Source: Cymodocea nodosa (lineage: Eukaryota > Streptophyta > Magnoliopsida > Alismatales > Cymodoceaceae). From it: 64,000 bases of DNA. The stretch is taken from NCBI GenBank assembly GCA_036874045.1, contig JAZBRI010000009.1:2976001-3040000 (forward strand), written 5' to 3'. The translations under genes were made by a program, and so were the position numbers. Below the pieces are notes generated by a model, which made no database searches, had not been told where the DNA came from, and saw only the letters and a list, made by a program, of their open reading frames with translations. This document shows, one piece after another, positions 12,445 through 63,065 of the stretch. Within the stretch, counting starts at the first letter, position 1; every line of letters starts with the position of its first letter.

Positions 12445-12451
12445 TAAAACT

Positions 12452-12957: not shown

Positions 12958-13187
12958 GAATTGTGTGACCAGTCGTGAATCTATCAGCTTCCCCACTTAA
13001 TTTAAATTTTTTTTTTTTGCGCCAACATTTACAAGTAGTGATTAAAGAAAAAGGCAGTTATGAAAGTAACTTAATTAGTTACATATAGTACAAGTAAACC
13101 AACAAGAAAACCCCAAGCACGACCTTTGTCCGCAAAAAACTACACACAATTCTTCCTCATGTCCACGGGGGAATGAGCAAATTATTT

Positions 13188-21015: not shown

Positions 21016-21929
21016 ATCTAATTTGGAAAACATATATATAAATGAAAAACACATTAGTGAAATATGGATGACAATGACAACATCAATCATTAATTTAAAA
21101 AATAAATAAGTTAATATTTATTCAATGACAACATGCATTAAAAATGGATAAGAATGAATAACATAAATAAGTTACTAGTTATTCATAACACATGAAATGA
21201 CACACCTAAGAATTTCATACTTTTTTTCGATGGATTTGTAATCAAAATATAACCAAAGAAAAAAGTTGAACATCATATACAACACAAATTAGTTTATTTA
21301 GTTTGATTTACTTTCTATTATTTTCCTTTTTGTTATTTTCTAGGTGTATAAACTTTTATCAATTACTTCACCAAATATGAGTGCAAGAAATTCTAATATT
21401 ACATTTTTTTGTCTAATATACCATGTCGAAAGAAAAGTTAATCAATACTTATCTTTTATTTCATTGTTACCCATATTTTCTACTACAACATTACTTCATG
21501 CCACATCACTAAACAATTGGGAAATGTTAGAATGTCAAGTAGCACTTAAAACAAATTGGGAGAGAGGTGGAAACCACATTTTAGTCTAATATATGCATTT
21601 TATTTTAAGTTGTAAGTTGGACAATCCCTTTCCTATATCCTTCAGATATTTGAAGATTGGGATGATGAGCTAAGAGCCTACTATCTATTCAGAAAAAAGA
21701 ACACAATAGAAGGCTGGCATGAAATCACATTGTAACTCACGAAAGTAGAAACTGAAGCATAAAAAAAATTGACGAGCTTCGAGCACAAGGCCGAGTAAGA
21801 ACCAATCACTCGGCTAAGTAAGAACAGATCGTCATCAAAAGCAACCATCACAAACAAAAAAATCGACAAATAGACATTCTCAACCAAACAACTAGGGTAG
21901 TAAAAAGAGCATGGGGTCTTCACCAACCG
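21016..21929. other. no gene seen
   Basis: AT-rich sequence between PIF ORF1 and the minisatellite. Short open frames exist on both strands without recognisable domains. Confidence 0.5.
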
Positions 21930-22140
21930 ATCGGCGGGCTTCGAGCAATCGACAGGCTTTGAGCGGTTGGTGGGCTTCGAGTGTAAGGTAGGCTTTGAGC
22001 AGTCGATGGGCTTTGAGTGGTCGGCAAGCTTCAAGCACAAGGCGGGCTTTGAGCGGTCGATGAGCTTCGAGCGCAAGGTGGGCTTTGAGCAGTCGACGGG
22101 CTTCGAGCGATCAACAGGCTTCAAGTAGACGACGAGTGCT
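21930..22140. repeat. 18-bp minisatellite, about 11 units
   Basis: Units of the form GGCTTTGAGCGGTCGATG repeat with an 18-bp period and substitutions but almost no indels. Because 18 is a multiple of three, the minus strand stays open (22199-21681) and reads as hexapeptides such as SKPVDC and SKPADR. G+C content is well above the surroundings. No start context or homology supports a real gene. Confidence 0.85.
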
Positions 22141-24770: not shown

Positions 24771-25395
24771 TATAAGCACCCCAATTTTTGACATGTATAA
24801 GATAGATGTTCATAGTTATCCTGATAGCCTAAGGTTACTATCCACACCCATGATTGTGCATATGTGCTGTCCGTTCAGCATTTACATACTTGGATTGTTC
24901 AAATTAACTCTAAACAATCTTAGCCCTCCGTTTGCAAGATGTAGGATTGACTCCACTGTAAGGGCATGATCATACCCATTTAACCTTGTGATGGAGGTCA
25001 TTCTCCCTTTGATTGATCGATCGCTCTATCGGATCATTGTTTAGAATGAAAAAGTGCATATTATTAACGGTTAAATGATAGTTAATTGCATAATATTTAG
25101 CTTATCATATGAGAATTAAGTCATTATGTTATAATTGCACTGTTATATGCTTTAATTGAAGAATCTGCTTAATTTGGGGGAATTAATGTTAATTTAGCAC
25201 ATTTATGAACTGTCAGTAAGTTGCAGGCTGTGAAATTCTTAAGTATCTGAATTTTCTGATATTTCGAACAGTTATGTTTAACATACCGAACATATTCGGA
25301 CAATTATGTTTAACAGACTGAACATGTATCAGATAGTTATGTTTAAATTGCCGAACAGTTATGTTTTGAGAGAATATTTTATTATTTCCTAAAGT

Positions 25396-25815
25396 ACACG
25401 TGTCGAAACCATAATGCATGACTTAAGTGAACTTTTGGTGAGTTATCTATAACTATTTGAAATTGTAGTTGGGCATCGGACAATTATATGTATAATTCTC
25501 TGAAATCTCTTTTTATTTATAAAATAGCTGAGGACACGTGTCATGTTCTGGGAAAGTGACTTAAGTAGATTTTCGGTGAGTTATCTCTAACTATCTGAAA
25601 TGCATCTAAGCATCGGATAGTTAGCTCCGTAACTCTCCGAAATGTTATTTTATGATTAAACTACTACTGACACGTGTCGAGATCTGGTAGAATTACTTAA
25701 GTTATATATCGGTGAGTTATTTGTAACTATCCGAAATGCATCTGAGCATCGGATAGTTAAGTTTATAAGTATCCAAAATGTACCTGAGCATCGGATAGTT
25801 AAATTTATGCACGTG
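25396..25815 (+). repeat. U3 tandem repeats with G-box cores
   Basis: CACGTG cores at about 25397, 25535, 25671 and 25810 are spaced 136-140 bp apart, three of them as ACACGTGTC. Between them, variants of GGTGAGTTATCT and the inverted repeat AACTATCCGA...TCGGATAGTT recur. The 3' LTR has the same array at about 39902-40321. ACACGTGTC is a classic G-box/ABA-response type core bound by plant bZIP and bHLH factors. Enhancer function is inferred. Confidence 0.75.
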
Positions 25816-26032
25816 TTTTATAGTTAAATCAACAAAGAAAGTCCGTTGAGTTATCTGTAACTCCATGGACTATATATTTTCTAATATGCCAATGTAGCGG
25901 TTGTAGAAATAGGATAGTTGGAAGAAAAACCATGACTGCATGTATCGCGCAAGGAGAAGAAATCATCGCCGTTGATACGAATGAAGGAAATCCAACCGAC
26001 CATTCAAGCAAAAGCAGTTACTACTGAAGAAA

Positions 26033-26040
26033 TATAAAAG
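26033..26040 (+). promoter_or_regulatory. LTR TATA box
   Basis: TATAAAAG, conserved at the same place in the other LTR copies (for example 40539-40546 in the 3' LTR). It lies downstream of the G-box array, as expected for the U3 promoter. Confidence 0.7.
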
Positions 26041-27226
26041 AAAAGAAGAAAACGAAGAAAAGTGTGTGATCGATGGGCGGACAGTGTGTGTAAAGGAGGA
26101 TCAGCGTCGCAATTCTCTGAAGTACCACACCAACCATCATCATCACCACCATAATCACCAACCATCGGAGGTCTGTAAGAATACTTTCTTGATGTCGGGT
26201 CGATTTTGAACCAAACAAAGTGCCTGACAACCACTATGAGAAGTGATCACGTCGCGAGAAGGGAAGGCATTTTCACCAAGTGCCGACTCATATTTCAGGA
26301 GATCGTAAAGCTTTTAGCCTTGGCTTCGGGTTGATACCTGTATGCTAAAGAGGAGATCATCTTGCAATTCTAGACTCGCGATTCTATAGGGAGAGAAGAC
26401 AGAATTGTAAGTGGTTTAATTTTCAGTGGTGTAATCGCGTTGCAAGTAGTGTCGGAAGTATTTACTGTCAAGTGAGATTACTTTACATTTCACCTTTCGC
26501 CCATTTCCATGTTCATATTAAACCAAAAATACCAAAAACAACTTATTTGCTATTGTATGTTGTATTTGAGTGTTGTATTGTTTGTGTTGTATCGTGATTA
26601 ATGTTATATTTGTCAGTGTTATGATTGTTTTATGTTGTTTTAGTTTTACAGTTTACTGAAATTGGTTCGTTCAAAAGACTTAAAGATTTTAATGGTTACT
26701 GTTTGAATTATCTGAATGTTAGTATTGCTTAATGATAAATCCAATGTTAACTAACATTAAAGAGCTTAATTGATGTTATTTACAATCTGTGGAATCACCC
26801 AATGGTTGGCCGAATTCCTTTGTAAATAGTAGTATTAAAAAGAAAAGACAAGCTCGTAGAGTTAACTTAAGTCCACGAGGTTAGTCCGTTGAGTTACCCA
26901 TAACTCAACGAACTTTTGTTCGTTGAGTTAATTGTAATTCAACGGAGAGCTTATTGAATATATAAATTTGATTGTTAACAAATGAACAGTTCTCAAGTTC
27001 TTCAGTAATTCCTTGTGGAATCGACCTATACTTACACACTGATACAATAGACATTGTGCACCTGCAGTTAAAGTACAAATTGAAATTAATATCTAAATTG
27101 TATTAAAGGTTGTTTGTTTACTTCTAAAAGAAAAAATATGCATAAAGATAAATTAACTAAGTAAAAACAGAAGTAACAAATCCAAGTTTTTCTAGTGTAG
27201 TATTGGGAAAACTCAAACAAGTTTTA

Positions 27227-27243
27227 TGGCGCCATTGCGGGGA
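27227..27243 (+). other. element B primer-binding site (tRNA-Asp)
   Basis: TGGCGCCATTGCGGGGA lies 7 bp after the LTR. It matches the complement of the tRNA-Asp(GUC) 3' end except for a substitution and a missing base. Confidence 0.85.
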
Positions 27244-27358: not shown

Positions 27359-30300
27359 ATGGCATATGCTTATGCTCAAATATTTCTGAAACCTGTAATT
27401 AGCATATGTGAATTCTACAATTTTGAAGGACACGACATTTCTGACTGTTTGAAATTGAGACGTTTACAGATGGTTAGATCCCATGAACAACAAATGAATT
27501 ATCCTCAGTATAATAGAGTCGAGTATGAGAATCCTATAGTTTACCCAACTGATGGTCAGTATAGAATGTGTAATATGTTGAGAGACATTGAAGTTTAGGA
27601 TAGGTATGACAGACTGGAGCGTAGTATAGAGCAAAATCTAGACAAACTGGAATACTTTGTGTGTCAGCAACAAGAAGTCAACCAATTAAACTATAAGGAA
27701 GCATATTCAGAACCTAAAAAGGATATAATTTATGAAACTGAAAAAATCATAATGAAAATTGATCAAAAATTGAATGCAATGAAATTAGATGATCTGGAAA
27801 GAAAATTAAAAGCATTAGACAAATATACAATGAAAATACAAGTTATGCAACAGGACAATGAAAATTATAATGTTATAAACCTACATAATTTGCAAAATAT
27901 ACAGCAAACAGAAAATACTAATGCAAGAGAATTTAAAGAATGCACTTTAAAACTAAAAACAATTAAAGATCATAATCACGAAAATGATATACAAAAACAT
28001 CATGAGAGTAACGAAAATCTGGAAGATGTATGTGTAACATTAAGATCTGGAACTAATATACCACCAAGAACTCAAAATGAAAATGACATGAAGGTGGATA
28101 AGAGTAAAAATCAAAATGATAATGAAAATGTAATAGCTGAAAATCTAGAAATCACTGAAGAACAATCTGAATCTGCGAATGAAGCTAAAAATGATCAAAC
28201 AAATCAACTGAAAGAAAAATAGCCTTTGAAATCAAAATCTTTAGCACCCTATCTTGAAAGATTACAACAAACAATACCTGAAAAATAAGAAAAAATTAGA
28301 GAAATTTTTGAAAAAGTACAAGTTAACATTCCTTTGTTAAATCTATTGTAGAAAATGCCACCTTGTGCTAAATTTCTAAATGATTGATGTACTAAGAAAA
28401 GAGAGCAAAAAGTTCTTAGAATGGTCTTTTTAGCTGAGCAAAGTAGTTCCCTATTTCTGTCACAAATTCCTAAAAAGTTATCTGATCTTGGAATCTTTGT
28501 TATATCATGCACCATAGGAAATACCATTCTAGAAAGAACCTTAATAGACTTAGGTGCAGGTATAAATGTTATGTCAAGTGATATATTTGCATCCTTAGGA
28601 TTAGAAGGCTTAACTCCTACTAGTACGGTCATTCAATTAGCTGATAGAAGTATAAGATACCCTAGAGGAAAAATAGAGGATGTCTTAATTAAAATCAAAA
28701 ACTTTATATATCCTATTGATATTGTAATTTTGGATTCCCAACAAATTAAGCATAAAAATAGTGATACATCTTTAATTTTGTGAAGGCTATTTTTAGCAAC
28801 ATCAAGGGTTGTTATAAATTGTAAAACGGGAGTAATGAAGTTAGCATATGGCAATGAGGATACTTAATTAAATATTTTCAAACTAGAAAGGTTTGAGGAG
28901 TTAGAAATGTCTTTACACACCATAGACTTTTTAGAGGATGAAGGAGATATGTTAGATGATGTGATTCAAGAAGAATTAAATAGGTAAATCAATTCTAAAA
29001 CTTTAGAGGAAAGTGAAAGCATAAATATAGGAGATCTGGAAGAAATTAATTTAGAAAAGGGTGATGTTCAATTAGGAGCTCTAGCTTTTGATGGGCAGCA
29101 TTTAGAATTAAAACCTTTACCTCCTGAATTAACCTATATATTTCTGGAAGATAAACGAACCTGTCCAATCATTATTGCTTTAGATTTAAAAGAAGATCAA
29201 AGAGCTAAATTAAAAGATGTAGTAAAAGGTTATAAAAAAGCAATAGGATGGACTATGACTGATATAAAAGGGTTAAGTTCAACTTTATGTTGTCACCACA
29301 TATATTTAGAAGAGAATGCTAAACCTGTTAGAATTCCTGAGAGGAGATTAAATCCAAACCTTAAAGAAGTAGTTTAGAAGGAAATAGTTAAATGGTTAGA
29401 TAATGACATAATTTATCTGATTTCTGAAAGCTCGTGGGTTAGCCCAATCCATGTAGTTCCCAAGAAATCAAGATTAACAGTTATTAGGAATGAAAGTCAA
29501 GACTTGATACCTACTAGAATTCAATCAGGCTGGAGAGTATGTATAGACTATAGAAAGCTGAATGCTGTGACTAGGAAAGATCATTTTCTCTTACCTTTTA
29601 TAGATCAAATGCTGGAAAGATTAGCAGGGCAAGAATATTTTTGTTTCCTAGACGGGTATTCAGGGTATAATCAAATTCCAGTAGCATTAGAGGATCAAGA
29701 GAAAACAACTTTCACTTGTCCTAATGGAACTTTTGCTTTTAAGAGAATGTCATTCGGATTATGCAATGCACTAGCTACCTTTCAAAGGTGTATGCAGGGC
29801 ATATTTACTGGAATGACTGAAAATTTTTTAGAAATATTTATGGATGATTTTACTGTATATGCTAACTCATATGAAGTCTATTTAAAAAATTTAGATTTAA
29901 TATTAAAATGCTGTGTGGAGAAAAATCTGGTTTTAAATTGGGAAAAATGTTACTTCATGGTTAAACAAGGAATAGTCTTAAGGTATGTTGTTTCTAAGAA
30001 AGGGTTGAAAGTAGATAAAGCTAAAATAGAAGTAATTTCTAATCTACCAGAACCTAAATCAGTAAAAGATATTAGATCATTTCTAGGACATGTTGGTTTT
30101 TATAGAAGATTTATTAAAGACTTTAGCAAGATAGCTAGACCTTTAACTAATCTATTAAAAGATGTTCCATTTAACTTTGATAAAAATTGTAAGGAAGCAT
30201 TTTTCAGACTTAAGACTAGCTTAATTTCAACTCCTATAATTCAAGCACCTGATTTGAACTATTCATTTGAATTAATGTGCGATGCTTCTAATTTTGCTGT

Positions 30301-31999
30301 AGGAGCAGTGTTAGGACAGAAGATAGAAAAATCTCCTAGAGTGATTCATTATGCAAGCAAAACCTTAAATGATGCTCAAGTTAATTACACAACTACTGAA
30401 AAAGAATTATTAGCTGTTGTGTTCACTTTAGAAAAGTTTAGATCATATCTGATTGGAGCTAAAGTAATAGTATACACGGATCATTCAGCTCTAAAACATC
30501 TAATGAAGAAAAAAGAAACTAAACCTAGATTGATCCGATGGATATTATTATTGCAAGAATTTGATCTAGAAATTAAAGATAAAAAAGGTTGTGAGAATGT
30601 AGTAGTAGATCATTTATCAAGATTACAAATAGAAAAATCAAATATTGAAATTAAGGATAATTTTCCTAATGACCAATTAATGACCATCAACACAATGTCT
30701 TGATATGCAGACATAGTTAATTACTTAGTTATTGGTTTAACACCTAAGGATTGGAATAGACAGGATAAGAAATTGTTTTTCTCAAGAGTAAAATATTACT
30801 ATTGGGAAGACCCATACTTATTTAAGAAATGTCCTGATTTGGTTTTAAGGAGGTGTATTCTAGAAACTGAATATCCAAGGATATTATCTTTCTGTCATGA
30901 CCAAGCTTGTGGAGGGCATTTTGGTTCAGGGAAAACTGCTGCAAAAATTCTACAATGTGGGTTTTATTGGCCAACACTATTCAAAGATGCTTATAAATAT
31001 TGCTTAAGTTGTTTAAGATGTCAACAAATAGGAAGAATATCAAAGAGGAATATCATGCCTCTTAATCCTATTGTTGAGGTTGAAATCTTTGATGTGTGGG
31101 GAATAGATTTTATGGGTCCATTTACTATGTCCAATCAATTTAATTACATATTGTTGTGGGTGGATTATGTATCTAAATGGATAGAAGTTATTCCTATAAA
31201 AACTAATGATAACAAAGTGGTAATATAATTTATAAGAACAAATATATTTACTAGATTTGGAATATCTAAAGCTATTATCAGTGATAGAGGAACTCATTTC
31301 TGTAATAGAAGTTTTGAAGCCTTAATGAAGAAATATGGAGTAAACTGCAAAATTGCAACATCATATCATCTGCAAACAAGTAGACAAGTAGAAAGTGCAA
31401 ACAAATAAATTAAATTAATCTTAGAAAAAGTAGTAAATCCTACTAGAACAAATTGGGTTAATAGATTGATAGATGCACTTTGGGCTTATAGAACTGCTTA
31501 TAAAGCGAGCTTAGGTATGTCACCTTTTAGGCTAGTATATGGAAAAAGTTGTCATTTACTTGTTGAAATAGAACATAAAGCTTATTGGGCATTAAAAACT
31601 CTGAACACTAATTTAAATCAAGCTGCTGAAAATAGAAAAATGCAATTAATTAAATTAGAAGAATTTAGAAATGAAGCTTATTCGAAGACTGTAAGAGAAA
31701 AAGAGAAAATTAAATTCTAGCATGATAGAAAAATTATTCCAAAAAGCTTTGAAATAGGACAAGAAGTATATCTTTATATGGCTAGATTCCATAACCATCT
31801 AGGAAAATTAAAATCTAGATGGGTAGGACCTTACATAGTTTGAAATATTTATCCTTATGGAGCTATTGAAATTGAAAATCCTAAAAATCAGAATATATTT
31901 AAAGTAAATGGACAAAGACTGAAACTTATTCTGAAAACATCAAAAAGCTCCTTTGGAATTATAGAAGAAGTTATAGAGGACTACTCGAGCTTTACTTAG
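27359..31999 (+). pseudogene. pol: pol polyprotein of element B (NC-PR-RT-RH-INT), at least 14 stops
   Basis: A single 4641-nt frame without frameshift. Order by approximate residue: zinc knuckle 17-30 (CEFYNFEGHDISDC, second Cys now Tyr), helical linker, VTLRSG about 230, Athila-type protease LIDLGAGINVM about 395, reverse transcriptase from about 715 with FMDDF about 827, RNase H with [10 protein letters not shown] about 973, integrase zinc finger HDQACGGHF...CLSCLRC about 1180-1222, catalytic WGIDFMG, ISDRGTHF and RQVESANK. There is no capsid domain at its start, unlike ordinary Athila gag-pol. Stops include 27596, 28220, 28286, 28349, 28385, 28781, 28865, 28985, 29375, 30701, 31226, 31406, 31718 and 31841, many at CAA, CAG or TGG codons of the other copies. 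Confidence 0.92.
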
Positions 32000-32053
32000 T
32001 AAGAAATTAGTTTTTATGTTGATAAAAGAAAAACATTACAAAAAAAGAAAAAC

Positions 32054-32425: not shown

Positions 32426-32606
32426 ACTATAGCTAAGACCGCGGATAAAATAGTAATAGTTGGTTCGAAAAATGACCCGATTACTTGCCTAAACTTAGGG
32501 CTTATTTAAACTAAAACCTAGGGTTTTGGGGGCATTATCTAGCAAATCATTTAGTATCTAGAATAGTAGAAATTAGAGCAATTCTGTGTTGTTGTGTAAC
32601 TCCACG

Positions 32607-34208
32607 ATGAGGAAGATGTCGCTTGAATTTTGGGAAGAGGCAGTGGACACCGCATAGTTTATGAAGGAATCTAAAGAATAGCACACGTGGTAGAAGATAA
32701 GAAATACAACAAGAGAGAAAGAGCTACAAAAGGTAGAATCAGAACTCTTTAACATGAGGAAAGTTTTGGTTGAGTTAGAAATACAAATACCACAGATAAT
32801 GGAGACACGAATTAGAGTGGCAACTGAAATTGCAATAAGTAAAGAAAGAAAGATACGGCCAAACAATGAAGTAGCCCTAAAATTAATCCAACGTAAGTCC
32901 CAGCTCTGGTTCAAAAGACGAATCTGTAGACAAGCTAGATGGGTGATCTGGGAGCAAGAAAGAAAAGAAAATCAGGTTGAAATTAGTCTGCAGCCTGTAC
33001 AAGAAGAAAGAACAGAAATTAGGGTAGAAATGGAATTGCCCGTGACTCCATCCCAATCTGTTACAGAATCAGAAAGAACAGTAATAGAATAGATTGGTAG
33101 TTAGGAGGAAAAAGAAAGAGCAAAAACTGAAGAAGCTGAAAGAAGCCATTTGGACAAAAATAATTTTACAGATTCCACTGAAGAGCAAGAAACTCTTCAG
33201 CAATTTATGGAGAGAATTCAATACAAAGTGGAGAGTTCTGCCGGCTCACCATCACAAACAAAAGCAAAAATTCAGGAATCTGTAGAGAATGTTCAAATGC
33301 AGCCTATAGAAGAGGAAGAGCAAGTACAAACCCCTCTGGAACAACAAAGTCACCTTCCTGACCCGACTGAAACAACAATTTTGAATGAAGTACATTTTTG
33401 TAGTCAAGAAGCTTATACTAAATACCAAGAAATAAGGGGTTACGACATTATTTACAGTAGACCAGTAAATTGGGATGGAATGTAAGAAATCAAAGATTTA
33501 TTTGAATTCCAAGGTCTACTGCAATTCATTTCTCAAGAAAGAGGGCATGTAGTATATGAGAATTTAGTGCCCTGTTTTTATGCAAATTTAAGAGAAGGAG
33601 AAGGAGGATTAATTTCAAACGTGGAGGAAGCAGATGTACAGATAACACTAGAGCTTCTCCACAACATTTTTGGATTGAAGAATGAAGGACTAAAAATTTT
33701 GGAAGACACAACTGTAGTCAAGTGGACAGAATAGCAAATTAAAGATTGTTTAGCTATCAATCCTGGTGTGCCATTATTAAATAGATTGAAGCATTTAAAT
33801 GGTAAAGCGCACATGGTAGCTAACATTCTGATTAAGAATGTCTATCAACGACAGGGCCATGACATAGAATTAAGTCAATTTGTCAAATGAGCCACATATG
33901 TAGTTGTAAATAAGATTCAAATAAATTGGTCTACAGTTTTTATCTCCAAGCTGAAAGTAGTAAAGAAAAAATTGTTTTATGGAGATTTGATTCCACTACT
34001 GATGGTGGACTGTATCGATTTCACTAAATGGACATAAAAAAAAATCAGATCAAGAACCATTTCAGTGAAAGAATATAGAAATTTTGTAGCTGTAGAGATA
34101 GTTGTACCTTCTAGAGGCATTACAGGAGCTGTAGAAAGAATTAATCAATTAGAACTTCAATTAGAAAAACTCCAAAAGGAAGTAGATGAACTTAGGCATA
34201 AAGATTAA
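32607..34208 (+). pseudogene. plant transposon-type ORF of element B, eight stops
   Basis: A 1602-nt frame from ATG at 32607. The first third is charged and Glu/Lys-rich. The middle resembles the 'putative plant transposon protein' domain found in Athila/Tat elements: YENLVPCFYANLREGEGG, then a DVQITLELLHNIFGL segment, then a helical block. The end (about 34140-34205) is a leucine-spaced coiled coil. Stops lie at 32655, 32679, 32691, 33090, 33483, 33732, 33888 and 34035; the frame is otherwise continuous. Elements A and C lack the gene, though C keeps its last 50 nt (45191-45240), showing it was deleted there. The function of the domain is not known to me. It is not recognisable as an envelope: no signal peptide or membrane span is visible. 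Confidence 0.65.
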
Positions 34209-35084: not shown

Positions 35085-36475
35085 ATGGAAAGCTTCAGAC
35101 TAGTATGTAATTAATCTTCTGCTATTTATTTATGAGCACATGGACTCGTTCTCTAAGCACTAAACGATTAGTAAGAACACCTACCTAGGAAATTTCATTG
35201 CAGAGGAGTACTGAAAAATTTTCTAAACTGAACTTTAACGAAATTCTTTGGGGTGTAACTAACCTTTCTTTAAAAGAGAAAGTAGAAATGGCTGCTCTAG
35301 TAGAAAATCCATTAGGAGAGATTTTGTATCTTGAATTAGTTGATGAACCTTCATGTATTCGATTGCCAAACTTTGAAGGAGATAGATTTGAACTGAAATC
35401 TAATTATATTAGTCAATTGCCACATTTTCATGGATTAGAAAGAGAGGATGCCTATTATTTCCTTAGAGAATTTAACGAAGTTTGTCAAATGATGAAAATG
35501 TCGAACATGAGTATAGATGCTATTAAACTTAGATATATCCCTTTTTCTTTAAAAGACACAGCTAAGAGATGGTTATATACTCTATCGCCTGATTCAATTT
35601 CTACATGGACTGAATTTTGCTTTGTTTTTCTGGAAAAATATTATCCAACACATCAAATGATTAAAAAAAAGAAAGAAATATTAATGTGTAGCCAAAAATA
35701 GGGTGAATCATTCTGGAAATATTTTGAAAGATTTAAAGATTTACTGACTCAATGTCCACATCATGCAATGAGTAAAGCACAATTAATAGGTATAATTTAT
35801 GAAGGCATAGATGTTTCAACAAAATCTTTATTAGAATCTACTTGTCAAAATAGATTTTTAAAGTTATGTAGTGAAGAAGCATGGGCATATTTAGAAAACT
35901 TTGCAAAAAGAACTACACAATGAGAAAACTCGGCTGAAGCTATTGTAGATAAAAAAATATTGCCAAGAGGAATGCATGAAATAGATTCAAATACTATGCT
36001 TGAGGTGAAATTAAATGAATTAACAAAGAAAATAGAAGAGTTATCATTAAATCAAAAGCTAGTAGAAAAGAATGCAAACATAAATGACTTAGATATTATT
36101 TATGCTAGAAACCAGAGAGATAACTTGGGAAATTCTTATCATCCTAATTGGAGAAATCACCCAAATTTATCTTGGAGAAACAACAATTTCCAAGGAGGAG
36201 AAAATATAAATGAGAAGGACATAAGTTATGAAGCATTAATTGAACAAGGATCTAGAATAAAGAAATTAGAAAAGATAATCCAACAATTAAACAATCGTCT
36301 AGATTTTGTATTTGGAAATGCTACAATTCAAAATCAAAATAGAAATATACCACTTAGACAGAAGGAACCAATGGAAGTTAGACCTTCTAGAGGATTGCCA
36401 ATACAAGCTATTCCTAATCCTGTCAATAGAACGGTTAATGAAATTGATACCTCTTCTGGGAGCGTAGCTGAATGA
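35085..36475 (+). pseudogene. gag: gag capsid gene of element B (spliced, two stops)
   Basis: Model: exon 1 35085-35102 (ATG...CTA), intron 35103-35203 (GTATGT...TTGCAG, 101 nt), exon 2 35204-36475 (1272 nt), 429 codons plus stop. Exon 2 carries the Athila/Ty3 capsid domain: SCIRLPNFEGDRFELKS, REDAYYFLREFNEVCQMM, AKRWLYTLSPDSISTW, FLEKYYPTHQ and LLTQCPHHAMSKAQLIG. It continues through the KLNELTKKIEELSLNQKL coiled coil and NSYHPNWRNHPNLSWRNNN. The zinc knuckle expected between those last two blocks is missing; a knuckle occurs only in the 5' ORF. Stops: TAG at 35699 (Gln in A and C) and TGA at 35922 (Trp in C). Capsid would form the virus-like particle in the cytoplasm. Placement 3' of pol is abnormal for this superfamily. 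Confidence 0.87.
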
Positions 36476-36600: not shown

Positions 36601-36663
36601 TGCAGTAGTTATGTTAATTTTTATCTCTACTAAATTTTTGTTTGTGTTATATAGAATCGACAA

Positions 36664-37803
36664 ATGGAATTAATGCAATTACCATTGGATGCACTAAGGG
36701 AAGTACTAAGTAACTTGTCAGCTAAAGATCTGTGTAGGCTGTGTTGTGTATCAAAGGAAATTAAAGACTGTATTGAAGAAAAATATTTTCAGGGACTACA
36801 AGCTACAAAAATGACTAAGATTAGAGATGGATTCATATGGAGGTCATTTAATCGTAGTTCAATTAACCATGAATATCTGGCTATGGAAGAAACTACTGGA
36901 ATTCCACCCAATGCATTAGAAGGAATAAATCATATTATGGGGATAGATGAAGAATTAATCATATACAAGACGAGACCAAGGTATGCAAGTTTATTATTAC
37001 CTGATATTTTGATAAGAAATCCTATAACAAGAGAAGAATGGAATATAGGATGACCTAATAGATTTGAAGTACCAACTGTAAATTGTAGGTCAGCTTTAAT
37101 ATTTTCTGATAAAAATTCTACAATTCCTGAAAAATTATATTATTGGAGACCTACAGGAAATTTGGGTGAAGATTTATGCTTAAGTGTGTATAATTTTCTA
37201 AATAGATCTTGGAATGAAAATATTATGATATATCTAGGACAGAAATCATTAATTAACCAAACACATGTCATACTTGATGGATATATATATCTAGTCACAG
37301 AGATATCAATAGCATATGGATCTGATTTATACATAGTGAGCATAGACAGTTATGATGAATATATAGAAATTTTACCTGTATCGAGTGAAATAGCTAAACC
37401 ACCATCTACAGAATTTAATAAAATTCAAATAGGAATGTGGTATAATGAAGAAGATGATCCTACTTTATGTATGATAAGATGGTGGGATGAACTGATAAAA
37501 TTTCAAATATAGATTATGGAAGACATAAATGAATGGAAGTGGGAAGAAGAGTATATTGAAATAGATGTAGAAATAGAAACTACTACATTACCCTGGAACC
37601 AAAAAGGATCTCTTTCTGCATTTCATATCATTAATGGTAATACACTTGTATTTGGAATTTATAATATATTACATGTTTACAAATTAAGAAGGAACAATAA
37701 CTGCATTAAAACAAAATTAATAGCAAGAAAAACTATGCCTAAAAAGTTTGCTTGGACTGATACATTTATTCCATTTGTTTCTACTTTTCAATCATGTTCT
37801 TAA
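36664..37803 (+). pseudogene. F-box/FBA gene carried by element B, two stops
   Basis: A 1140-nt frame, ATG at 36664, with an F-box at residues 5-42 (LPLDALREVLSNLSAKDLCR and VSKEIKDCIEE). The F-box-associated part follows: IIYKTRPRYASLLLPDILIR, RNPITREEWNIG, LYYWRPTGN, ILDGYIYLVTE, YIVSIDSYDEYIEILPV, IQIGMWYNEEDDPT and MEDINEWKWEEEYIEI. The domain pattern is that of plant SCF substrate adaptors, so the normal role would be ubiquitin-ligase target choice. Stops: TGA at 37051 (Arg in A) and TAG at 37510 (Trp in A and C). The coding region has no intron. It sits 188 bp after gag and before the 3' untranslated part, so it is cargo of the element rather than an insertion target. Confidence 0.87.
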
Positions 37804-38236: not shown

Positions 38237-39537
38237 TTAATTGAAGTAACAGCCATGTAAGTTTGTTAATTAAAGAAATTAAAATGGTACTGCAAAGTTT
38301 TGAGGAAATTGAAAATTTTTATGAACTTGCTGTAACTATTCGGTAATTGAGACTGTAAAATTTATATAAACTATAACTACTTGAATGTTATATTTAGAAG
38401 GCTATATAAGATGCTATAGAATTTACTATTTATGCAAATCTAGATATAGTATCTTATGTTTTTTTTCTGAATTTCATGAGTTTAACAGTTTTACGATTTT
38501 AAAATGAAATCAGAATGCTTAATGAAAAAATAGTAAATTATCTGAAGTCCTAAAAGAGCTGAGATGTGAATTCTAGATTAAATGAAACACATATGATTAA
38601 AGATACATTTAATTTGACTGATTGAACTTGTAGAATGATTTATGTGTAGATCTTATTAAATTACATAAAAAGTATGAGCTTATTGTTATGGATTCATATT
38701 TACAGTAAATGATAGAAGCAGGACTATATGAGATTGGTGTTTTACTACATCTGTATTAATAAAATACATACATATATAGTATGTGATTAATGTTTTGTTT
38801 TGTGTTTGTAGTTTGATTGAAAAAAAAAAAGGAAAATTTTGAGAGTTTATTAACTTGTTTGATCACGAGCCTTTTGTACTTGAGCAGATAAGTATGTAAT
38901 GATTGTTGACCTGAAAAAGGACTCTTGAAATCTAGCAACCTAAGATCCTGATCAGATCTGGGATTGTTGACTAAAAGCTCGTTACATGGGTACATAAGAA
39001 AGCTCTTGTACGATTCAAGTTTGTCAAATTAGCTTTTAAAAAAGAAAAAAAAAATATATATATATATATATACTGTTCTGAAAAGATACAAGTGTTTTGT
39101 GAAATACAGATATCTTATGAATCGAGTATATTTTCTGTTATCTAGAATTACTGAAATATGAATCTGGAATTGACTTTTGAAGTTGTTTAATGGAGATACA
39201 ATTCTTTATTCTACTTGTCTTAATCAGATTGAATTGGATTGTACTTTGATTCGTATGTTGTTGAAATTTCTTCTAGAAATCTTATTGGAAAATTCAGGAT
39301 GACAGATGATGAAAAGAAGAACAAACGATAATATAATTAACACTTATGTGATGATAATATACTTTTTATGTAATTTGCATATATTCTAAGTATATTTGCA
39401 GGTTGATTACTGAAACATACAGAATATATTTTTATGCTAAATAGAAGAAAAACAAAGAAGAAGAATTAATTCTAGCACTTTTGAAAGACCAATTAATTAG
39501 ATCTTAGTTTGCTAAGGGACTAGCAAAATTTAGGTAT

Positions 39538-39545
39538 GGGGGAAG
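39538..39545 (+). other. element B polypurine tract
   Basis: GGGGGAAG directly before the 3' LTR start TGTTTAG, the expected primer for plus-strand DNA. Confidence 0.88.
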
Positions 39546-41728
39546 TGTTTAGAATGAAAAAGTGCATATTATTAACTTAAATGATGGTTAATTGCATAAT
39601 ATTTAGCTTATCATATGAGAATTAAGTCATTATGTTATAATTGCACTGTTATATGCTTTAATTGAAGAATCTGCTTAATTTGGGGGAATTAATGTTAATT
39701 TAGTATATTTCTGAACTGTCGGTAAGTTGCAGGTTGTGAAATTCTTAAGTATCTGAATTTTCTAATATTTCGGACAGTTATGTTTAACATACCGAACATA
39801 TTTGGACAGTTATGTTTAACAGGCTGAACATGTATTAGATAGTTATGTTTAAATTGCCAAATAGTTATGTTTTGAGAGAATATTTTATTATTTCCTGAAG
39901 TACACGTGTCGAAACCATAATGCATGACTTAAGTGAACTTTCGATGAGTTATCTATAACTATTCAAAATTGTAGTTGGGCATCATACAATTATATGTATA
40001 ACTCTCCGAAATCTCTTTTTATTTATAAAATAACTGATGACACGTGTCATGTTCTGGGAAAGTGACTTAAGTGGATTTTCGGTGAGTTATCTCTAACTAT
40101 CCGAAATGCATCTAAGCATCAGATAGTTAGCTCTATAACTCTCTGAAATATTATTTTATGATTAAACTACTGTTGACACGTGTCGATATCTGGTAGATTT
40201 ACTTAAGTTATATATCGGTGAGTTATTTGTAACTATCTGAAATGCATCTGAGCATCAGATAGTTAAGTTTATAAGTATCCGAAATGCACCTAAGCATCGG
40301 ATAGTTAAATTTATGCACGTGTTTTATAGTTATATCAACGAAGAAAGTCCGTTGAGTTATCTGTAACTCCACGGACTATATATTTTCTAATATGCCACTG
40401 TAGCGGTTGCAGAAACAGGATAGTTGGAAGAAAAACCACGACTGCATTTATCGCGTAGGGAGAAGAAATCATCGCAGTTGATACGAATGAAGGAAATCCA
40501 ACCGACCATTCAAGTACAAGCAGTTACTACTGAAGAAATATAAAAGAAAAGAAGAAACAGAAGAAAAGTATGTGACTGATGGGCGGATAGTGTGTGTAGA
40601 GGGGGATCAGCGTCGCAATTCTCTGAAGTACCACACCAACCATCATCATCACCACCATAATCACCAACCATCGGAGGTCTGTAAGAATACTTTCTTGATG
40701 TCGGGTCAATTCCAAGCCAAACACAATGCCTGACAACCATTGTGAGGAGTGATCGTGTCGCGAGAAGAGAAGCCATTTTCACCAAGCGCTAACTCATATT
40801 TCAGGAGATCGTAAAGCTTTTAGCCTTGGCTTCGGGTTGATGCATGTATGCTGAAGAGGAGATCATCTTGCAATTCTGGACTCACGATTCTATAGGGAGA
40901 TGAGACAAAATTGTAAGTGGTTTAATTTTCATTGGTGTAATCGCGTTGCAAGTAGTGTCAAAAGTATTTACTATCAAGTGAGATTACTTTACATTTCACC
41001 TTTTGCCCATTTCCATGTTCATATTAAACCAAAAATACCAAAAACAACTTATCTGCTATTGTATGTTGTATTTGAGTGTTGTATTGTTTGTGTTGTATCG
41101 TGATTAATGTTATCTTTATCAGTGTTGTGATTGTTTTATGTTGTTTTAGTTTTACAGTTTACTGAAATTGGTTCGTTCAAAAGACTTAAAGATTTTAATG
41201 GTTACTGTTTGAATTATCTAAATGTTAGTATTGCTTAATGATAAATCTAATGTTAACTAACATTAAAGAGCTTAATTGATGTTATTTACAATCTGTGGAA
41301 TCGCCCAATGGTTGGTCGAATCCCTCTATAAATAGCAGTATTAAAAAGAAAAGACAGGCTCGTAGAGTTAACTTAAGTCCACGAGGTTAGTCCGTTGAGT
41401 TAGCCATAACTCAACGAACTTTGTCCGTTGAGTTAACTGTAATTTAACGGAGAGCTTATTGAATATATAAATTTGATTGTTAACAAACAAACAAACAATT
41501 CTCAAGTTCTTCAGCAATTCCCTGTGGGATCGACCTGTACTTGTACACTGATACAATAGACATTGTGCACTTGCAGTTAAAGTACAAATTGGACTTAATA
41601 TCTAAATTGTATTAAATGTTGTTTGTTTACTTCTAAAAGAAAGAATAGGCATAAAGATAAATTAACTAAGTAAAAATAGAAGTAACAAATCCAAGTTTTT
41701 CTAGTGTAGTGCTGGGAAAACACAAACA
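39546..41728 (+). repeat. element B 3' LTR
   Basis: 2183 bp, closely matching the 5' LTR over its full length with scattered substitutions and small indels. The same U3 G-box array (about 39902-40321), TATAAAAG at 40539 and terminal inverted repeats are present. It ends ACACAAACA at 41728, followed by the ATCAT duplication. Confidence 0.95.
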
Positions 41729-43421: not shown

Positions 43422-44931
43422 TGTTTAGAATGAAAAAGTGCATATTATTAACGGTTAAATGATGGTTAATTACATAATATTTAGCTTATCATATGAGAAT
43501 TAAGCCATTATGTTATAATTGCACTGTTATATGCTTTAATTGAAGAATCTGCTTAATTTTGGAGAATTAATGTTAATTTAGTACATTTATGAACTGTCGG
43601 TAAGTTGCAAGTTGTGAAATTCTTAAGTATCTGAATTTTCTGATATTTCGGATAGTTATGTTTAAATTGCCGAACAGTTATGTTTAGAGAGAATATTTTA
43701 TTATTTCCAGATGTACACGTGTCAAAACCAGAATGAATGTCTTAAGTGAATTTTCGGTGAGTTAGCTGTAACTATCCGAAAATGCATATGAGCATCGGAT
43801 AGTTAGACCTGTAACTCTCCGAAATGTTATTTTATGTTTAAACTACTACTGACACGTGTCGAGATCTGGTAGATTTACTTAAGTTATAACTCGTTAAGTT
43901 AGCATAACTGTACGCGTTGAGTTACATGAATATATACTAAGGTAACACGTTAGGTTAGCGGCTTATTTCTTTATTGCATGTATTTTATAGTTATTTTCTA
44001 AAATGCCACTGTAGCGGTTGCAGGAACAGACAGTTGGAAGGAAAAACCACGTTTGCACGTATCACACAGGAATTCAATCACGCATGGAGAAGGAAGCATC
44101 GCCGTTGATCTGAAGGCATGGAGAAGGAAGCATCGCCGTTGATCTAAAGGAAGGAAATCCAACCGATCATTCAAGTAGAAGCAGTTACTACTGAAGAAAT
44201 ATAAAAGAAAAGAAGAAAAAAAGAAGGTGTGATCGATGGACAGCTAGTGTATACAAAGGAGGAGCACCGAGCTTTCTACAAACAGTATCGGCGATTCTCC
44301 GAAGTATCACACCAACCATCGTTATTACCACCATAATCATCAATCATCTGAGGTCTGTGAGGATACTTGCCTGATGTCGAGTCGATTCCGAGCCAAACAC
44401 AGTGCTTGACAACCACTATGAGGAGTGATCGCGTCGCGGGAAGGGAAGACATTTTCACCAAGCACCGACTCATATTTCAGGAGATCATAAAGCTCTTAGC
44501 CTTGGCTTCGGGTTGATGCCTGTATGCTGAAGAGGAGATCATCTTGCAATTCTGGACTCACGATTCTATAGGGAGAGAAGACAGAATTGTAAGTGGTTTA
44601 ATTTTCAGTGGTGTAATCGCATTACAAGTAGTGTCGGAAGTATTTACTATCAAGTGAGATTACTTTACATTTCACCTTTCACCCATTTCCATGTTCACAT
44701 CAAAACAAAAATACTAAAAACATTTTATCTTTGTTTGTATGTTGTATTTGAGTGTTGTATCGTGGTTAATGTTATCCGTATCAGTTTTATGATTGTTTTA
44801 TGTTAGTTTTAATTTTATAGTTTACTGAAATTGGTTCGTAAAAAAAAAACTTAAAGATTTTAATGGTTACTGTTTGAATCATCTGAATGTTAGTATTGCT
44901 TAATGATAAATCCAATGTTAACTAGCATTAA
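43422..44931 (+). repeat. element C 5' LTR, 3' truncated
   Basis: About 1510 bp of LTR ending in GCATTAAA, then CATAGTATCGG from the internal spacer (compare about 32206). Both parents have AAA at the junction, a microhomology of about 3 bp. This LTR has fewer U3 repeat units than B (G-box cores near 43710 and 43853 only). Confidence 0.9.
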
Positions 44932-46138
44932 ACATAGTATCGGTTCAACCGAAAGAAAAATAAAAAATAAAAAATATTTAGGTCTGACCGAAGCATACTA
45001 TCGGTTAAACTAGTAAAAAAATAGAAAAACTATTCTCTGTAATATTTTTATTATTATATTTGCTTGTACGGGAGTCCGTTGAGTTACGCTTAATTCAACG
45101 AGCATACTCCGTTAAGTCTTGAGTTAGTCAACGAGCTTATTCCGTTGAGTTAACTGTAACTCAACAAAGTATTGTAGCTAAGACCTAAAATTAGAAAAAC
45201 TCCAGAAGGAAGTAGATGAATTTAGGCATAGAGATTAAATTGTATTGTTCGTCTACTTGTGTAAAATTGTATGAAATTGTATGGTGTACTTGTAATGTAA
45301 TTGATTCATATTAATGAATATAATTTTTTAGATGCAATTTTCATACGTATTTGGATGTGAAATGAATGGAATTTGTTGAATATTATGTAATTTGAGGAAC
45401 TTTATGAATATGTAACAGATTTATAATTTGCTGAATGACAGGATAACTGCTTAAAAATTTCTGCATGTTATAAGGTAAAATGTAAATTCTACATAACGTA
45501 AAATGAGTTGCAAGTTAAATCTTTATATAATGTTCAAATTTAAATGTATTTTAATCAAAATGAGGCATTAATGACATATATTTAACTTTATTACAATTAG
45601 CAGAATGAAAAACAAAGAAAAAAAAAACAGAAAAGAAAACTTACGCGAGTGAAACTTAGAAGTTGCCTAGTGTTAACTCAACGAAGTAAGTCCGTTGAGT
45701 TAACCGTAACTCCACGAGGTCAGTAATATAATATAAGGTCACTCCGTTGAGTTATCTATTACTCAATGAAGTTAGTCCGTGGAGTTAGCAACAGTAACCG
45801 ACTGTGTTTTGTTGAGTAATCTGTAACTCAACGAGGTTAGTTCGTAGATTAAGTAGAATGGTTATTCTTTTAACCACAAATGAAATTTCGTCAGTTTAGC
45901 GGTTACTAAAATTTGAAATTAGTAGTGGTACACGTACCCATAAAAACAAGAACCACGATGCACGTTGCAAGACACGTTCTTGCAATGAGATTTATTCACT
46001 TTATGGATGCGTAGTATATATATGAAACAGAATGTTATTTACGAGTTACCAGCACTTTTAAAAGAAAGGAGAATGCGTTGGAGAAACTAGAAGGAGAAGC
46101 AGCTGATTCAACTTCATCTGACAACAAATATTTATAGA

Positions 46139-47526
46139 ATGGAAAGCTTCAGACTGGTATGTAATTAATCTTCTGCTATTTATTTATGAGTACATGGACT
46201 CGTTCTCTAAGCACTAAACGATTAGTAAGAACACCTACCCAAGAATTTTCATTGTAGAGGAGTACTGAAAAATTTTCTGAATTGAACTTTAACGAAATTC
46301 TTTGGGGTGTAGCTAACCATTCTTTAAAAGAGAACGTAGAGATAACTGCTCTAGTAGAAAAACCATTAGGAGAGATTCTATATCCTGAATTAATTGATGA
46401 ACCTTCATGTATTCGATTGCCAAACTTTGAGGGAGATAGGTTTGAACTGAAATCTAATTATATTAGTCAATTGCCACATTTTCATGGATTAGAAAGAGAG
46501 GATGCCTATTATTTCCTTAGAGAATTTAACAAAGTTTGTCAAATGATGAGAATGTCGAACATGAGTATAGATGCTATTAAACTTAAATATATCCCTTTTG
46601 CTTTAAAAGATATAGCTAAAAGATGGTTATATACTCTATCGCCTGATTCAATTTCTACATGGACTAAATTTTGCTCTATTTTTCTGGAAAAATACTATCT
46701 AACACATCAAACGATTAAAAAGGAGAAAGAAATATTAATGTGTAGCCAAAAACAGGGTGAATCATTCTGGAAATATTTTGAAAGATTTAAAGATTTACTG
46801 ACTCAATGTCCACACCATGCAATGAGTAAAGCACAATTAATAGGCATAATTTATGAAGGCATAGATGTTTCAACGAAATCTTTATTAGAATCTACTTGTC
46901 AAAATGGATTTTTAAAATTATGTAGTGAAGAAGCATGGGAATATTTAGAAAATTTTGCAAAAAGAACTACACTGTGGGAAAATTCGACTGAAGCTATTGT
47001 AGATAAAAAATTATTGCCAAGAGGAATGCATGAAATAGATTCCAATACTATGCTTGAGGTGAAACTAAGTGAATTAACAAAGAAAATAGAAGAGTTATCA
47101 TTAAATCAAAAGCTAGCAGAAAAGAATACAAACATAAATGACTTAGATATTATTTATGCTAGAAACCAGAGAGATAACTTGGGAAATTCTTATAATCCTA
47201 ATTGGAGAAATCACCTGAGTTTATCTTGGAGAAACAATTTCTAGGGAGGAGAAAATATAAATGAGAAGAACATAAGTTATGAAGTATTAATTGAACAAGG
47301 AGCTAGAATAGAGAAATTAGAAAAGATAATCCAACAAGTAAACAATCGTCTAGAATTTATATTTGGAAATGCTGCAAATCAAAATCAGAATAGAAATATA
47401 TCACTTAGACAGAAGGAACCAATGGAAGTTAGACCTACTGAAGGATTGCCAATACAAGCTATACCTAATCCTGTCAATAGAACGGTTAATGAAATTGATA
47501 CCTCTTCTAGGAGGGCAGCTGAATGA
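46139..47526 (+). pseudogene. gag: gag capsid gene of element C (spliced, one stop)
   Basis: Same architecture as A and B: exon 1 46139-46156 (ATGGAAAGCTTCAGACTG), intron 46157-46257 (101 nt, acceptor now TTGTAG), exon 2 46258-47526 (1269 nt, one codon shorter). The capsid domain is complete (LPNFEGDRFELKS to CPHHAMSKAQLIG). The only stop seen is TAG at 47242 after RNHLSLSWRNNF, where B has a Gln codon. This is the least damaged capsid copy: the first 329 codons are open. Confidence 0.87.
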
Positions 47527-47715
47527 AGCAGCATATCTGAAGCAACTATCTGTATGTATATATGTTTTATTTTAAGTTAATAGTATCGTAGAGTTAATTT
47601 TTAACTCAATGAACTTAGTCCGTTGAGTTATGCCTTAACTCCACGAGGGTGTGTAGTAGTTATGTTAATTTTTGTCTCTGCTAAATTTTTGTTTTTTATT
47701 TTTCAAAATCGACAA

Positions 47716-48855
47716 ATGGAATTAATACAATTACCGTTGGATGCACTAAGGGAAATACTAAGTAACTTGTCAGCTAAATATCTGTGCAGGCTGTGTTGTG
47801 TATCAAAGGAAATTAAAGACTATATTGAAGAAAAATATTTTCAGGGAATACAAGCTGCAAAAATGACTAAGATTAGAGATGGATTCATATGGAGGTCATT
47901 TAATCGTAGTTCAAATACCCATGAATATCTTGCTATGGAAGAAACTACTGGAATTCCACCCAATGCATTAGAAGGAATGAGTCATATTATGGGGATAGAT
48001 GAAGGATTAATCATATACAAGACGAGACCAAGGTATGCAAGTTTATCATTACCTGATATTTTGATAAGAAATCCTATAATAGGAGAAGAATTGAATATAG
48101 GAAGACCAAATAGATTTGAAGCACCAATTGTAAATTGTGGGTCAGCTTTAATATTTTTTGATAAAAATTCTACAATTTCTGGAAAATTATATTATTGGAG
48201 ACCTACAGGAAATTGGGGTGAAGATTTATGCTTAAGTGTGTATAATTTTCTGAACAGATCTTGGAATGAAAACATTATAATATATCTAGGACAGAAATAA
48301 TTAATTAACCAAACACATGTCATACTTGATGGTTATATCTATTTAGTCACGGAGATATCATTAGCATATGGATCTGATTTATACATAGTGAGCATAGACA
48401 GTTATGATGATTATATAGAAATTTTACCTGTACTGAGTGAAATAGCCAAACCACCATCTACAAAATTTAATGAAATTCAAATAGGAATGTGGTATAATGA
48501 AGAAGATGATCCTACTTTATGTCTGATAAGATGGTGAGATGAACTAATGAAATTTCAAATATGGATTATGGAAGACATGAATGAATGGAAGTGGGAAGAG
48601 GAGTATATTGAAATAGATGTAGAAATAGAAACTGCTACATTACCCTGGAACCATAAACGATCCCTTTCTGCATTACATATCATTAATGGTAATACACTCG
48701 TATCTGGAATTTATAATATATTGCATGTTTACAAATTAAAAAGGAACAAGAACTACATTAAAACAGAATTAATAGCAAGAAAAACTATGCCTAAAAAGTT
48801 TGCTTGGACTCATACATTTATTCCATTTGTTTCTACTTTTCAATCATGTTCTTAA
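47716..48855 (+). pseudogene. F-box/FBA gene carried by element C, two stops
   Basis: Again exactly 1140 nt from ATG at 47716, colinear with the A and B copies and without indels that shift the frame. The F-box (LPLDALREILSNLSAKYLCR) and FBA segments are as in B. Stops: TAA at 48298 (Ser in A and B) and TGA at 48535 (Trp in A and B). The upstream splice-acceptor AG seen in A is lost here (TTTTTCAAAATCG). Open from the start to codon 194. Confidence 0.87.
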
Positions 48856-50615
48856 GCTGTGATTTTGTGTGTTTAACGTGTGTATTTTGCATTTATTTTT
48901 AAAAAGAAAAGAAAAGAAAAAAAAAGGAATTTTAAAGTTTTTCATGTTCATTTTATAAAAAAACAAAACAAAATATCAATCCAGTTTGTTGGTATCTGTT
49001 CTAGGAAACCAATTGGCTTGCTTGTGAGCCACCAAAGGCATAGAAGCCTAGGTTCCACACAAGACACTGATTTATTAATATCTGTTAAATGTTATTTTGT
49101 TTTATATTCTATATTTACCTAGGAATGAAAAGTTTTTCAGAATCAAAAATCGGAATATGCAGAAAGAGACACAAATGGAACAAGGTATGTAACCAATTAC
49201 TTATCCTGAATTTTAAATCAAACAAAACTTTATTCATGCCTGCTACAATTACTATACTTATTGCCAAATCTTTTACATTGAGGACAATGCAAAATGTAGG
49301 TATAGGGGGGAGGTAATTAAAGTAACAACCATGTAAGTTTGTTAATTAAAGGAATTAAAATGGTACTGCAAAGTTTTGAGGAAATTGAAAATTTTTATGA
49401 ACTTGCTGTAACTATCCGATAATTGAGACTTTAAAATTTTTATAAACTACTTGAATGTTATATTTAGAAGGCTATAGAAGATGCTATAGAATTTATTATT
49501 TATGTAAATCTAGATATAGTATCTTATGATTTTCTGAATTTCATGAGTTTAACAGTTTCACGATTTTAAAATGAAATCAGAATATTTAATGCTTAATCAG
49601 AAAATTATCTGAAGTCCTGAAGGAGCTGAGATGTGAATTCTAGATTAAATGAAACACATATGATGAAAGATACATTTACTTTGACTGATTGAACTTGTAG
49701 AATGATTTACGTGTAGATGTTATTAAACTACAGATAAAGTATGAGCTTATTGTTATGGATTCATATTTTTAGTAAATGATAGAAGTAGGATTATATGAGA
49801 TTGGTGTTTTACTGCATCTGTATTAGTGAAATACGTGCATATACAGTATGTGATTAATGTTTTGTTTTGTGTGTGCATTTATTTTTAGAAAAAAAAAAAC
49901 TTTGAGAGTTTATTGACTTGTTTGATCACGAGCCTTTTGTACTTAGGCAGATAGGTATGTAAGGATTGTTGACCTTAAAAAGGACTCTGAAAATCTGGCA
50001 ACCTAAGATCCTGATCAGATCTGGGATTGTTGATTGAAAGCTCGTTACATGGGTACATTAGAAAGCTCTTGTATGATTCAAGCTTGTCAAATTAACTTTT
50101 AAAGTACACAAAAAGAAAAGAAAAAAAAAACATATACTATTCTGAAAAGATACAAGTGTTTTGTGAAATACAGATATCTTATGAATCGAGTATATTTTCT
50201 GTTATCTAGAATTGCTGAAATATGAATCTGGAATTGACTTTTGAAGTTGTTTAATGGAAATACAATTCTTTATTCTATTTGTCTTAATCAGATTGAATTG
50301 GATTGTACTTTGATTCGTATGTTGTTGAAATTTCTTCTAGAAAACTTATTGGAAAATTCAGGATTACAGATGATGAAAAGAAGAACAAACGATAATATAA
50401 TTAACACCTATATGAAGATGATATACTTTGTATGTAATTTACATATATTCTAAATATCTTTGCAGGTTGATTACTGAAACATACAGAATATATGTTTATG
50501 CTAAACAGAAGAAAAAAAAACAAAAGGGGAGGAATTAATTGTAGTACTTTTTGAAAGACCAATTAATTAGATCTTAGTTTGCTAAGGGAATAGCAAAATT
50601 TCGGTATGGGGGAAG

Positions 50616-52560: not shown

Positions 52561-52585
52561 TGTTTAGAATGAAAAAGTGCATATT
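52561..52585 (+). repeat. element D 5' LTR stub
   Basis: First 25 bp of the LTR, then a junction into pol (compare 28367 in B). It marks the true left end of D. Confidence 0.8.
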
Positions 52586-52587
52586 TT

Positions 52588-56075: not shown

Positions 56076-56090
56076 GGAAGAGGAATATAT

Positions 56091-63058: not shown

Positions 63059-63065
63059 AGTTTTA

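Follow-up and report, generated by a model that had tools for sequence, protein, structure and literature searches.

Why does a plant LTR retrotransposon carry an F-box gene, and does the gene serve the element or has it been copied along passively? The question is raised by a window of 64,000 nt of the Cymodocea nodosa genome, i.e. the whole stretch of DNA that was analysed and to which all coordinates refer. An earlier note on this sequence had described an F-box/FBA gene as fixed cargo of an LTR retrotransposon, and had proposed either a benefit for the element or a recent capture. Plant LTR elements often capture genes, captured genes that are selected for the element have rarely been shown, and such selected genes seldom have a nameable activity.

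F-box genes in the window

The window contains F-box sequences in four elements, A to D:

7379-8518, minus strand: F-box gene of copy A, exactly 1140 nt, stops at 8390 and 8018
36664-37803, plus strand: F-box gene of copy B, exactly 1140 nt, stops at 37051 and 37510
47716-48855, plus strand: F-box gene of copy C, exactly 1140 nt, stops at 48298 and 48535
56076-56337, plus strand: F-box 3′ remnant of copy D, 262 nt corresponding to positions 879-1140, fused to the end of pol

These coordinates bear out the claim that a 1140-nt F-box gene lies directly 3′ of gag in A, B, and C, the gag gene being recognized by PF03732 in B and C and by DNA homology in A. It is also true that D has kept the 3′ end of the gene, the last 262 nt of which are joined straight to the end of pol, and that the stops differ between the copies, i.e. 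none of the six positions in A, B, and C is common to two of them. The D junction was considered as a splice product and rejected, because it falls within the F-box reading frame, away from the acceptor. Among A, B, and C there are no indels across the 1140 nt of the F-box gene and 0-1 per pair in gag; their 1.74-kb 3′ region has 7-11 indel events per pair. The window and its flanks together form a contiguous 264 kb with nine F-box copies or pieces, four in the window and five in the flanks.

Identity of the F-box protein

The label F-box/FBA was upheld in its first half. In scans up to the first stop, PF00646 was found in B (E 4.6e-11, 42.6 bits) and in C (E 9.1e-10, 38.5 bits) against a cut-off of 20.5 bits, and it was matched by all seven copies with an open frame, between which the F-box domain is conserved. 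The identification had been made dependent on such a profile match, and the match is real. The FBA half did not hold, as PF07734 (FBA_1) stayed below the Pfam cut-off, with E values of 0.026 and 0.068 in two of five open copies and a best score of 14.8 versus 21.1 bits; at E≤1 it was found in four of the seven open copies.

Protein searches with the C piece, one open copy, and an alignment of the seven open copies retrieved no relative, and PDB searches with the pieces and one open copy retrieved nothing relevant. For the seven-copy profile, the sole PDB entry retrieved was F-box only protein 4 (E 0.78). Structure predictions for two window pieces had pLDDT values of 34 and 30, too low to be of use.

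Element structure and position of the capsid gene

The elements and the parts of element B are the following:

25038-27219, plus strand: 5′ LTR of element B (TG...CA), with the target-site duplication (TSD) ATCAT at 25033-25037
27227-27243, plus strand: primer binding site (PBS) of element B, TGGCGCCATTGCGGGG-like
27359-32020, plus strand: first gene of element B, with NC zinc knuckle, PR, RT, RNase H, and integrase; interrupted by stops, no capsid domain
32694-34207, plus strand: Transposase_32-like region of element B (PF20167, E 0.022, below cut-off)
35085-35102, plus strand: short coding exon of element B, ATGGAAAGCTTCAGACT(A/G), encoding MESFRL, with the splice donor GT at 35103
35103-35203, plus strand: predicted 101-bp intron of element B before gag (GTATGT...CATTGCAG), from frame and site evidence
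35204-36475, plus strand: capsid gag of element B (PF03732), 3′ of pol
36654-36663, plus strand: F-box splice acceptor of element B, TATAG/AATCGACAA, just 5′ of the F-box ATG
39533-39545, plus strand: polypurine tract of element B, GGTATGGGGGAAG
39546-41728, plus strand: 3′ LTR of element B, followed by the TSD ATCAT
43422-52542, plus strand: element C, consisting of LTR (3′ truncated), gag, F-box, and LTR, with the TSD AGTTC on both sides
about 3527-12960, minus strand: element A, 5′ LTR cut at 12960
about 52561-59617, plus strand: element D, TSD ACAAT/ACAAC (4 of 5 positions match)

Element B has the full set of LTR retrotransposon features, i.e. a pair of TG...CA LTRs, a PBS, which is presumably of the tRNA-Asp type, a polypurine tract, and a 5-bp TSD. 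B and C are complete insertions with perfect 5-bp target-site duplications; C has its LTRs, polypurine tract, and TSD, and is devoid of the PBS, pol, and the Transposase_32-like region. The LTR-LTR divergence (K2P) is 0.062 for B and, over the 1454 sites remaining in the truncated LTR, 0.043 for C. RVT_1 and RT_RNaseH (29504-30703) precede Integrase_H2C2 (30704-31228), which is the order of Ty3/gypsy elements, and the protease match of B (PF13650, E 0.00019) is just below the cut-off. The domains of the element are of plant type.

The element has the order LTR - NC-PR-RT-RH-IN - Transposase_32-like ORF - capsid - F-box - LTR, the Transposase_32-like ORF being no longer present in some copies. 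The earlier note overlooked that the capsid gene is 3′ of pol, and also that gag is removed by splicing (see below). Gag is split, with the NC zinc knuckle heading the pol gene (27359-32020) and the capsid encoded separately at 35204-36475. The first gene of B begins about 140 nt past the LTR with MAYAYAQ... and the zinc knuckle. Nine such 5′ starts were found in the window, the flanks, and one further genomic locus (L040), in a search that relied on the zinc knuckle, so that ends without this motif would escape it; CX2CX4HX4C is whole in seven of the nine, and the second C is replaced by Y in B and in one flank copy.

Pol - gag - F-box is the order common to A and B, and the Transposase_32-like region is absent from A and C. 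In 200 kb of flanks, the order is pol - Transposase_32 - gag in L010, L016-17, and L024-25, and pol - gag without Transposase_32 in L027-28. None of these elements (A, B, and the four in the flanks) has the usual Athila order with gag before pol; we take gag and the PBS to resemble those of the Athila clade. Among the freely accessible papers listed by literature searches, none matched in having gag 3′ of pol.

Some copies have lost the Transposase_32-like region and retained the F-box gene. In C (45185-45263), L040, and L045 the region was lost by a common deletion with ends that are not GT-AG, and the F-box gene stayed. The gap common to these three, at about 32441-34158, was considered as a second intron, and this was rejected because GT-AG is not found at its ends in the sequence of B.

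Distribution in the genome

A PF00646 profile search of the 374.6-Mb genome yielded at least 150 matches (150 of 4219 candidates were scored), and the loci were ranked by F-box score. We inspected 38 of them, i.e. the best eight, the 20 loci that had the longest open frames once L005 was set aside (282-411 aa), and ten spread over the ranking (about every 14th). The F-box gene of the element accounted for 37 of the 38, namely for seven of the best eight, for all 20 long-frame loci, and for all ten spread loci. For annotators this is a warning, since nearly all inspected F-box matches of this genome are transposon genes. The exception, L005, has F-box/kelch domains of plant type, resembles an ordinary host gene, and has no match to the element.

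The 39 F-box copies used below have nucleotide identities of 76-96% to copy C. In L001, L002, and L008, the amino acid identity of the F-box protein is as low as 54-59%, and the gag preceding it in L002 and L008 has an identity of 68-77%. A recent capture, one of the two explanations offered earlier, is disfavoured because copies of the same pair of gag and F-box genes have diverged to this extent.

Purifying selection on the F-box gene

To estimate dN/dS (w), we used a purpose-written codon likelihood model of the GY94 type (F3x4, stops treated as missing) on a single nucleotide tree whose relative branch lengths were kept fixed, and separate values for internal and terminal branches. The set comprised the 39 F-box copies of at least 1000 nt among 47 pieces, and the eight shorter ones were left out. 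The estimates were 0.262 for internal and 0.433 for terminal branches (lnL -9439.30). Fixing the internal value at 1 gave lnL -9491.30 and was rejected at 2dlnL 104; the fully neutral model had lnL -9577.57. The gene was thus under purifying selection during the spread of the element. With the F-box domain removed (codons 47-379), the internal value was 0.274, so that the C-terminal part is constrained, too.

Sixteen copies from the window, the flanks, and the spread sample, which had not been chosen for open frames, gave values of 0.325 (internal) and 0.406 (terminal), and again neutrality of the internal branches was rejected (2dlnL 43.7). The seven local copies alone had an internal value of 0.455 with a weak rejection of neutrality (2dlnL 4.2). 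For comparison, we applied the same model to gag (n=11), with values of 0.150 (internal) and 0.436 (terminal), and to the 3′ non-coding region in three frames (n=8). The latter had overall values of 0.744, 1.076, and 0.853 and internal values of 1.37, 1.21, and 1.05; as a control it is imperfect, as frame 0 (0.74) departs from neutrality with 2dlnL 7.7.

These values bear on the possibility that a host gene was caught once, was then copied along passively, and decayed neutrally. Such decay could explain that 32 of the 39 copies are not open and that 12 carry a frame-breaking indel, as well as the pairwise dN/dS of 0.49-0.61 among A, B, and C. However, it does not account for the low internal value and its clear difference from 1, for the overall values of 0.74-1.08 in the 3′ non-coding region, or for the fact that, compared by length, it is 3-bp indels that recur in numerous copies. 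The earlier note had named internal values near 1 and a lack of intact copies as the mark of passive hitchhiking. Seven of the 39 copies are open over their full length; all seven belong to the 20 loci that had been selected for open frames, and none of the other 19 is open. We therefore regard neutral decay as quite improbable, and the view of the F-box gene as fixed cargo that is useful to the element is supported by the internal value of 0.26 and the open copies.

Another explanation would be that the copies are a large host family located near insertions, or that selection acted on copies that became useful to the host after insertion. L005, the one F-box/kelch locus among the 38, does resemble an ordinary host gene. 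Against this, the F-box gene lies inside LTRs flanked by target-site duplications in B and C, gag adjoins it wherever the upstream DNA sufficed (the spliced copies described below excepted), and the constraint is found on internal branches, which together make this explanation highly improbable.

Removal of gag by splicing

Among the 42 copies in which both the start of the F-box gene and the upstream region are present, five are devoid of gag, and the gap extends precisely from a GT donor to an AG acceptor. In four of the 20 long-frame loci (L032, L040, L045, and L046), the region that precedes gag runs directly into the F-box gene at a joint corresponding to B 35101/36654, and L049 of the spread sample is a fifth copy with the same joint. 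At this junction, ATG(A/G)AAAGCTTCAGACTG is joined to AATC(G/A)ACAA-ATG, with A in L032 and G in the other four. The unspliced copies of the window and the flanks mostly have the donor GACTGGTATGT, with A before the GT in B and GTTTGT in one copy. The acceptor AG after a T-rich tract was recognized by eye in 30 of the 37 unspliced copies (29 with a script pattern), and the AG is missing in seven of the 37, including C (CAA for CAG). The intron, which has gag inside, is 1.55 kb long.

The five copies without gag are five separate tips of the tree. As L040, L045, and L046 form one tight group, at least three independent events were counted. The exact loss of gag between GT and AG argues that spliced RNA was retrotransposed, and these genomic copies show that an RNA existed in which gag had been spliced out and the upstream ATG exon joined to the F-box exon. 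L032, L040, and L045 retain pol sequence or the region just 3′ of pol, and therefore their RNA had been deprived of gag without all of pol being removed. Ordinary deletions instead of splicing would be in line with the irregular deletions found elsewhere (pol of L040, the F-box gene of FL, and D), but they would have had to hit the same two endpoints, with GT...AG and a T-rich tract, at five separate tips, and we consider this highly unlikely.

Without splicing, the ATG exon would run into a stop after nine codons. It is in frame with gag across the 101-bp interval in six of the seven donor matches of the window and the flanks; the seventh match, which is without that ATG, has no gag acceptor, and one of the six in-frame copies has AA for AG at this acceptor. 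We infer that the same donor is also spliced to gag across the 101-bp intron. A copy with this splice to gag was not found in either the window or its flanks, nor was leader-to-gag splicing from the LTR found in the 3 kb that precede four spliced copies. As the ATG exon is joined to the F-box gene in the spliced copies and is in frame with gag across the 101-bp interval, one start exon may serve the capsid and the F-box protein in turn.

Possible function of the F-box gene

The F-box gene was kept at a dN/dS of 0.26 while dead copies decayed, and therefore the lineage must gain from it. Taking all data together, we consider it probable that the gene is a selected accessory gene of a Ty3/gypsy lineage that is expressed in the manner of retroviral env and encodes a putative SCF adaptor. 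A plant Ty3/gypsy lineage would have acquired an F-box gene long ago and retained it as an accessory gene. The gene occupies one and the same place in many diverged copies, travels with the element, and has been under purifying selection during its spread. Alternative splicing would pick either the capsid or the F-box protein, as is the case for the env and accessory proteins of retroviruses. The F-box protein would dock on SKP1 and hand a host protein over to the SCF ubiquitin ligase; a conserved F-box together with a constrained C-terminal part would fit an SCF adaptor that has a substrate. F-box genes serve cells in tagging proteins for degradation, and one that selection has kept functional and that seems to be expressed by splicing suggests that the element employs it either against its host or in concert with it. 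The likeliest kind of target would be a host factor by which the element is restricted, a silencing component would be a guess by analogy with polerovirus P0, and the gag protein of the element itself is another candidate substrate.

Alternatively, the F-box protein might regulate the element's own proteins, e.g. by tuning the capsid level, and not a host factor. This deserves consideration because gag and the F-box gene would compete for one splice donor. The common donor and ATG exon fit such a role, as does the presence of gag before the F-box gene in all seven element loci of the best eight and in 16 of the 20 long-frame loci, the remaining four being the spliced ones. On the other hand, plant-virus F-box proteins are mostly described as targeting host factors (cf. 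PMC3588083), and we judge a role of this kind to be unlikely, albeit less so than the alternatives discussed above.

Returning to the accessory gene with a host target, a more specific scenario can be formulated, which is possible but in our estimate somewhat doubtful as a whole: the lineage would have become retrovirus-like with a split gag, NC leading pol and the capsid located 3′ as a separate gene, and the ATG exon would be alternatively spliced either to the capsid or to an F-box protein that serves counter-defence by directing the SCF ubiquitin ligase of the host at a restricting factor. Some plant viruses use targeted protein destruction against their hosts, and if the element does have a spliced and selected SCF adaptor, the same strategy would become directly testable for transposons. 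Likewise, a displaced capsid gene and the expression of gag and F-box from one start exon would, if true, be a new expression layout of Ty3/gypsy elements in the literature searched.

Comparison with known elements

Additional ORFs of plant LTR elements (eORF/aORF, env-like; Athila, SIRE, Ogre) resemble the F-box gene in being sense ORFs between pol and the 3′ LTR that are present in many copies. Athila ORF-1, the plant mobile domain, and Transposase_28 are eORFs named in an excerpt of PMC6317226. The dN/dS values of 0.19-0.38 for Athila gag and env (excerpt of PMC2410132) are similar to that of the F-box gene. Unlike the known eORFs, the present element has a recognizable host-type F-box gene, and the capsid gene lies beside it 3′ of pol. 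Among the freely accessible papers listed by literature searches, none matched with an F-box gene in a retrotransposon. The main texts of PMC9289625, PMC13317346, PMC11963269, and PMC2410132 do not contain the word F-box, and neither do those of PMC6317226 and PMC7264820, the eORF domains of which are listed in their supplements.

The nearest case of a captured enzyme that we found is the orchid element Gypsy_Pa_2799, a Ty3/gypsy element with a 2-ODD (m6A demethylase) ORF that was kept through replication (excerpt of PMC9289625). Both elements have retained an acquired gene, but that of the orchid encodes an RNA demethylase and not an F-box protein, gag and pol form one ORF, and the same excerpt describes neither a displaced capsid gene nor a splice that removes gag. 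Maize Bs1 and other transduced genes are similar in that host coding sequence lies inside an LTR element; Bs1, however, contains segments of three genes, none of them a full-length ORF (excerpt of PMC13317346), whereas here one full-length gene is under selection in copies that have diverged.

Spliced element RNAs have been described for Ogre (excerpt of PMC6317226), Bagy-2 (PMC7264820), and BARE (excerpt of PMC3735527). In contrast to these three, the capsid gene itself is the intron here and the accessory gene is the product. Polerovirus P0 is also an F-box protein carried by a genetic parasite; P0 of some poleroviruses can target AGO1, and the role of its SKP1 binding is called unclear (excerpt of PMC6593998). 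P0 has an F-box-like motif, and a functional likeness to the F-box protein of the element would be a guess.

Other features of the window

A copia-type element at 393-3659 (Retrotran_gag_2 at 999-1691) adjoins element A at the end of its LTR, near position 3527. At 60890-64000, an LTR, a PBS, and the first 280 bp or so of the internal region are followed by a second LTR start at 63342, and this region is a further, internally deleted member of the family. On the minus strand, a 211-aa frame at 19953-20588 has a weak match to At2g29880_C (E 0.029, below cut-off), and an open frame at 21681-22199 contains a tandem SKPVDRSKPVD-like repeat.
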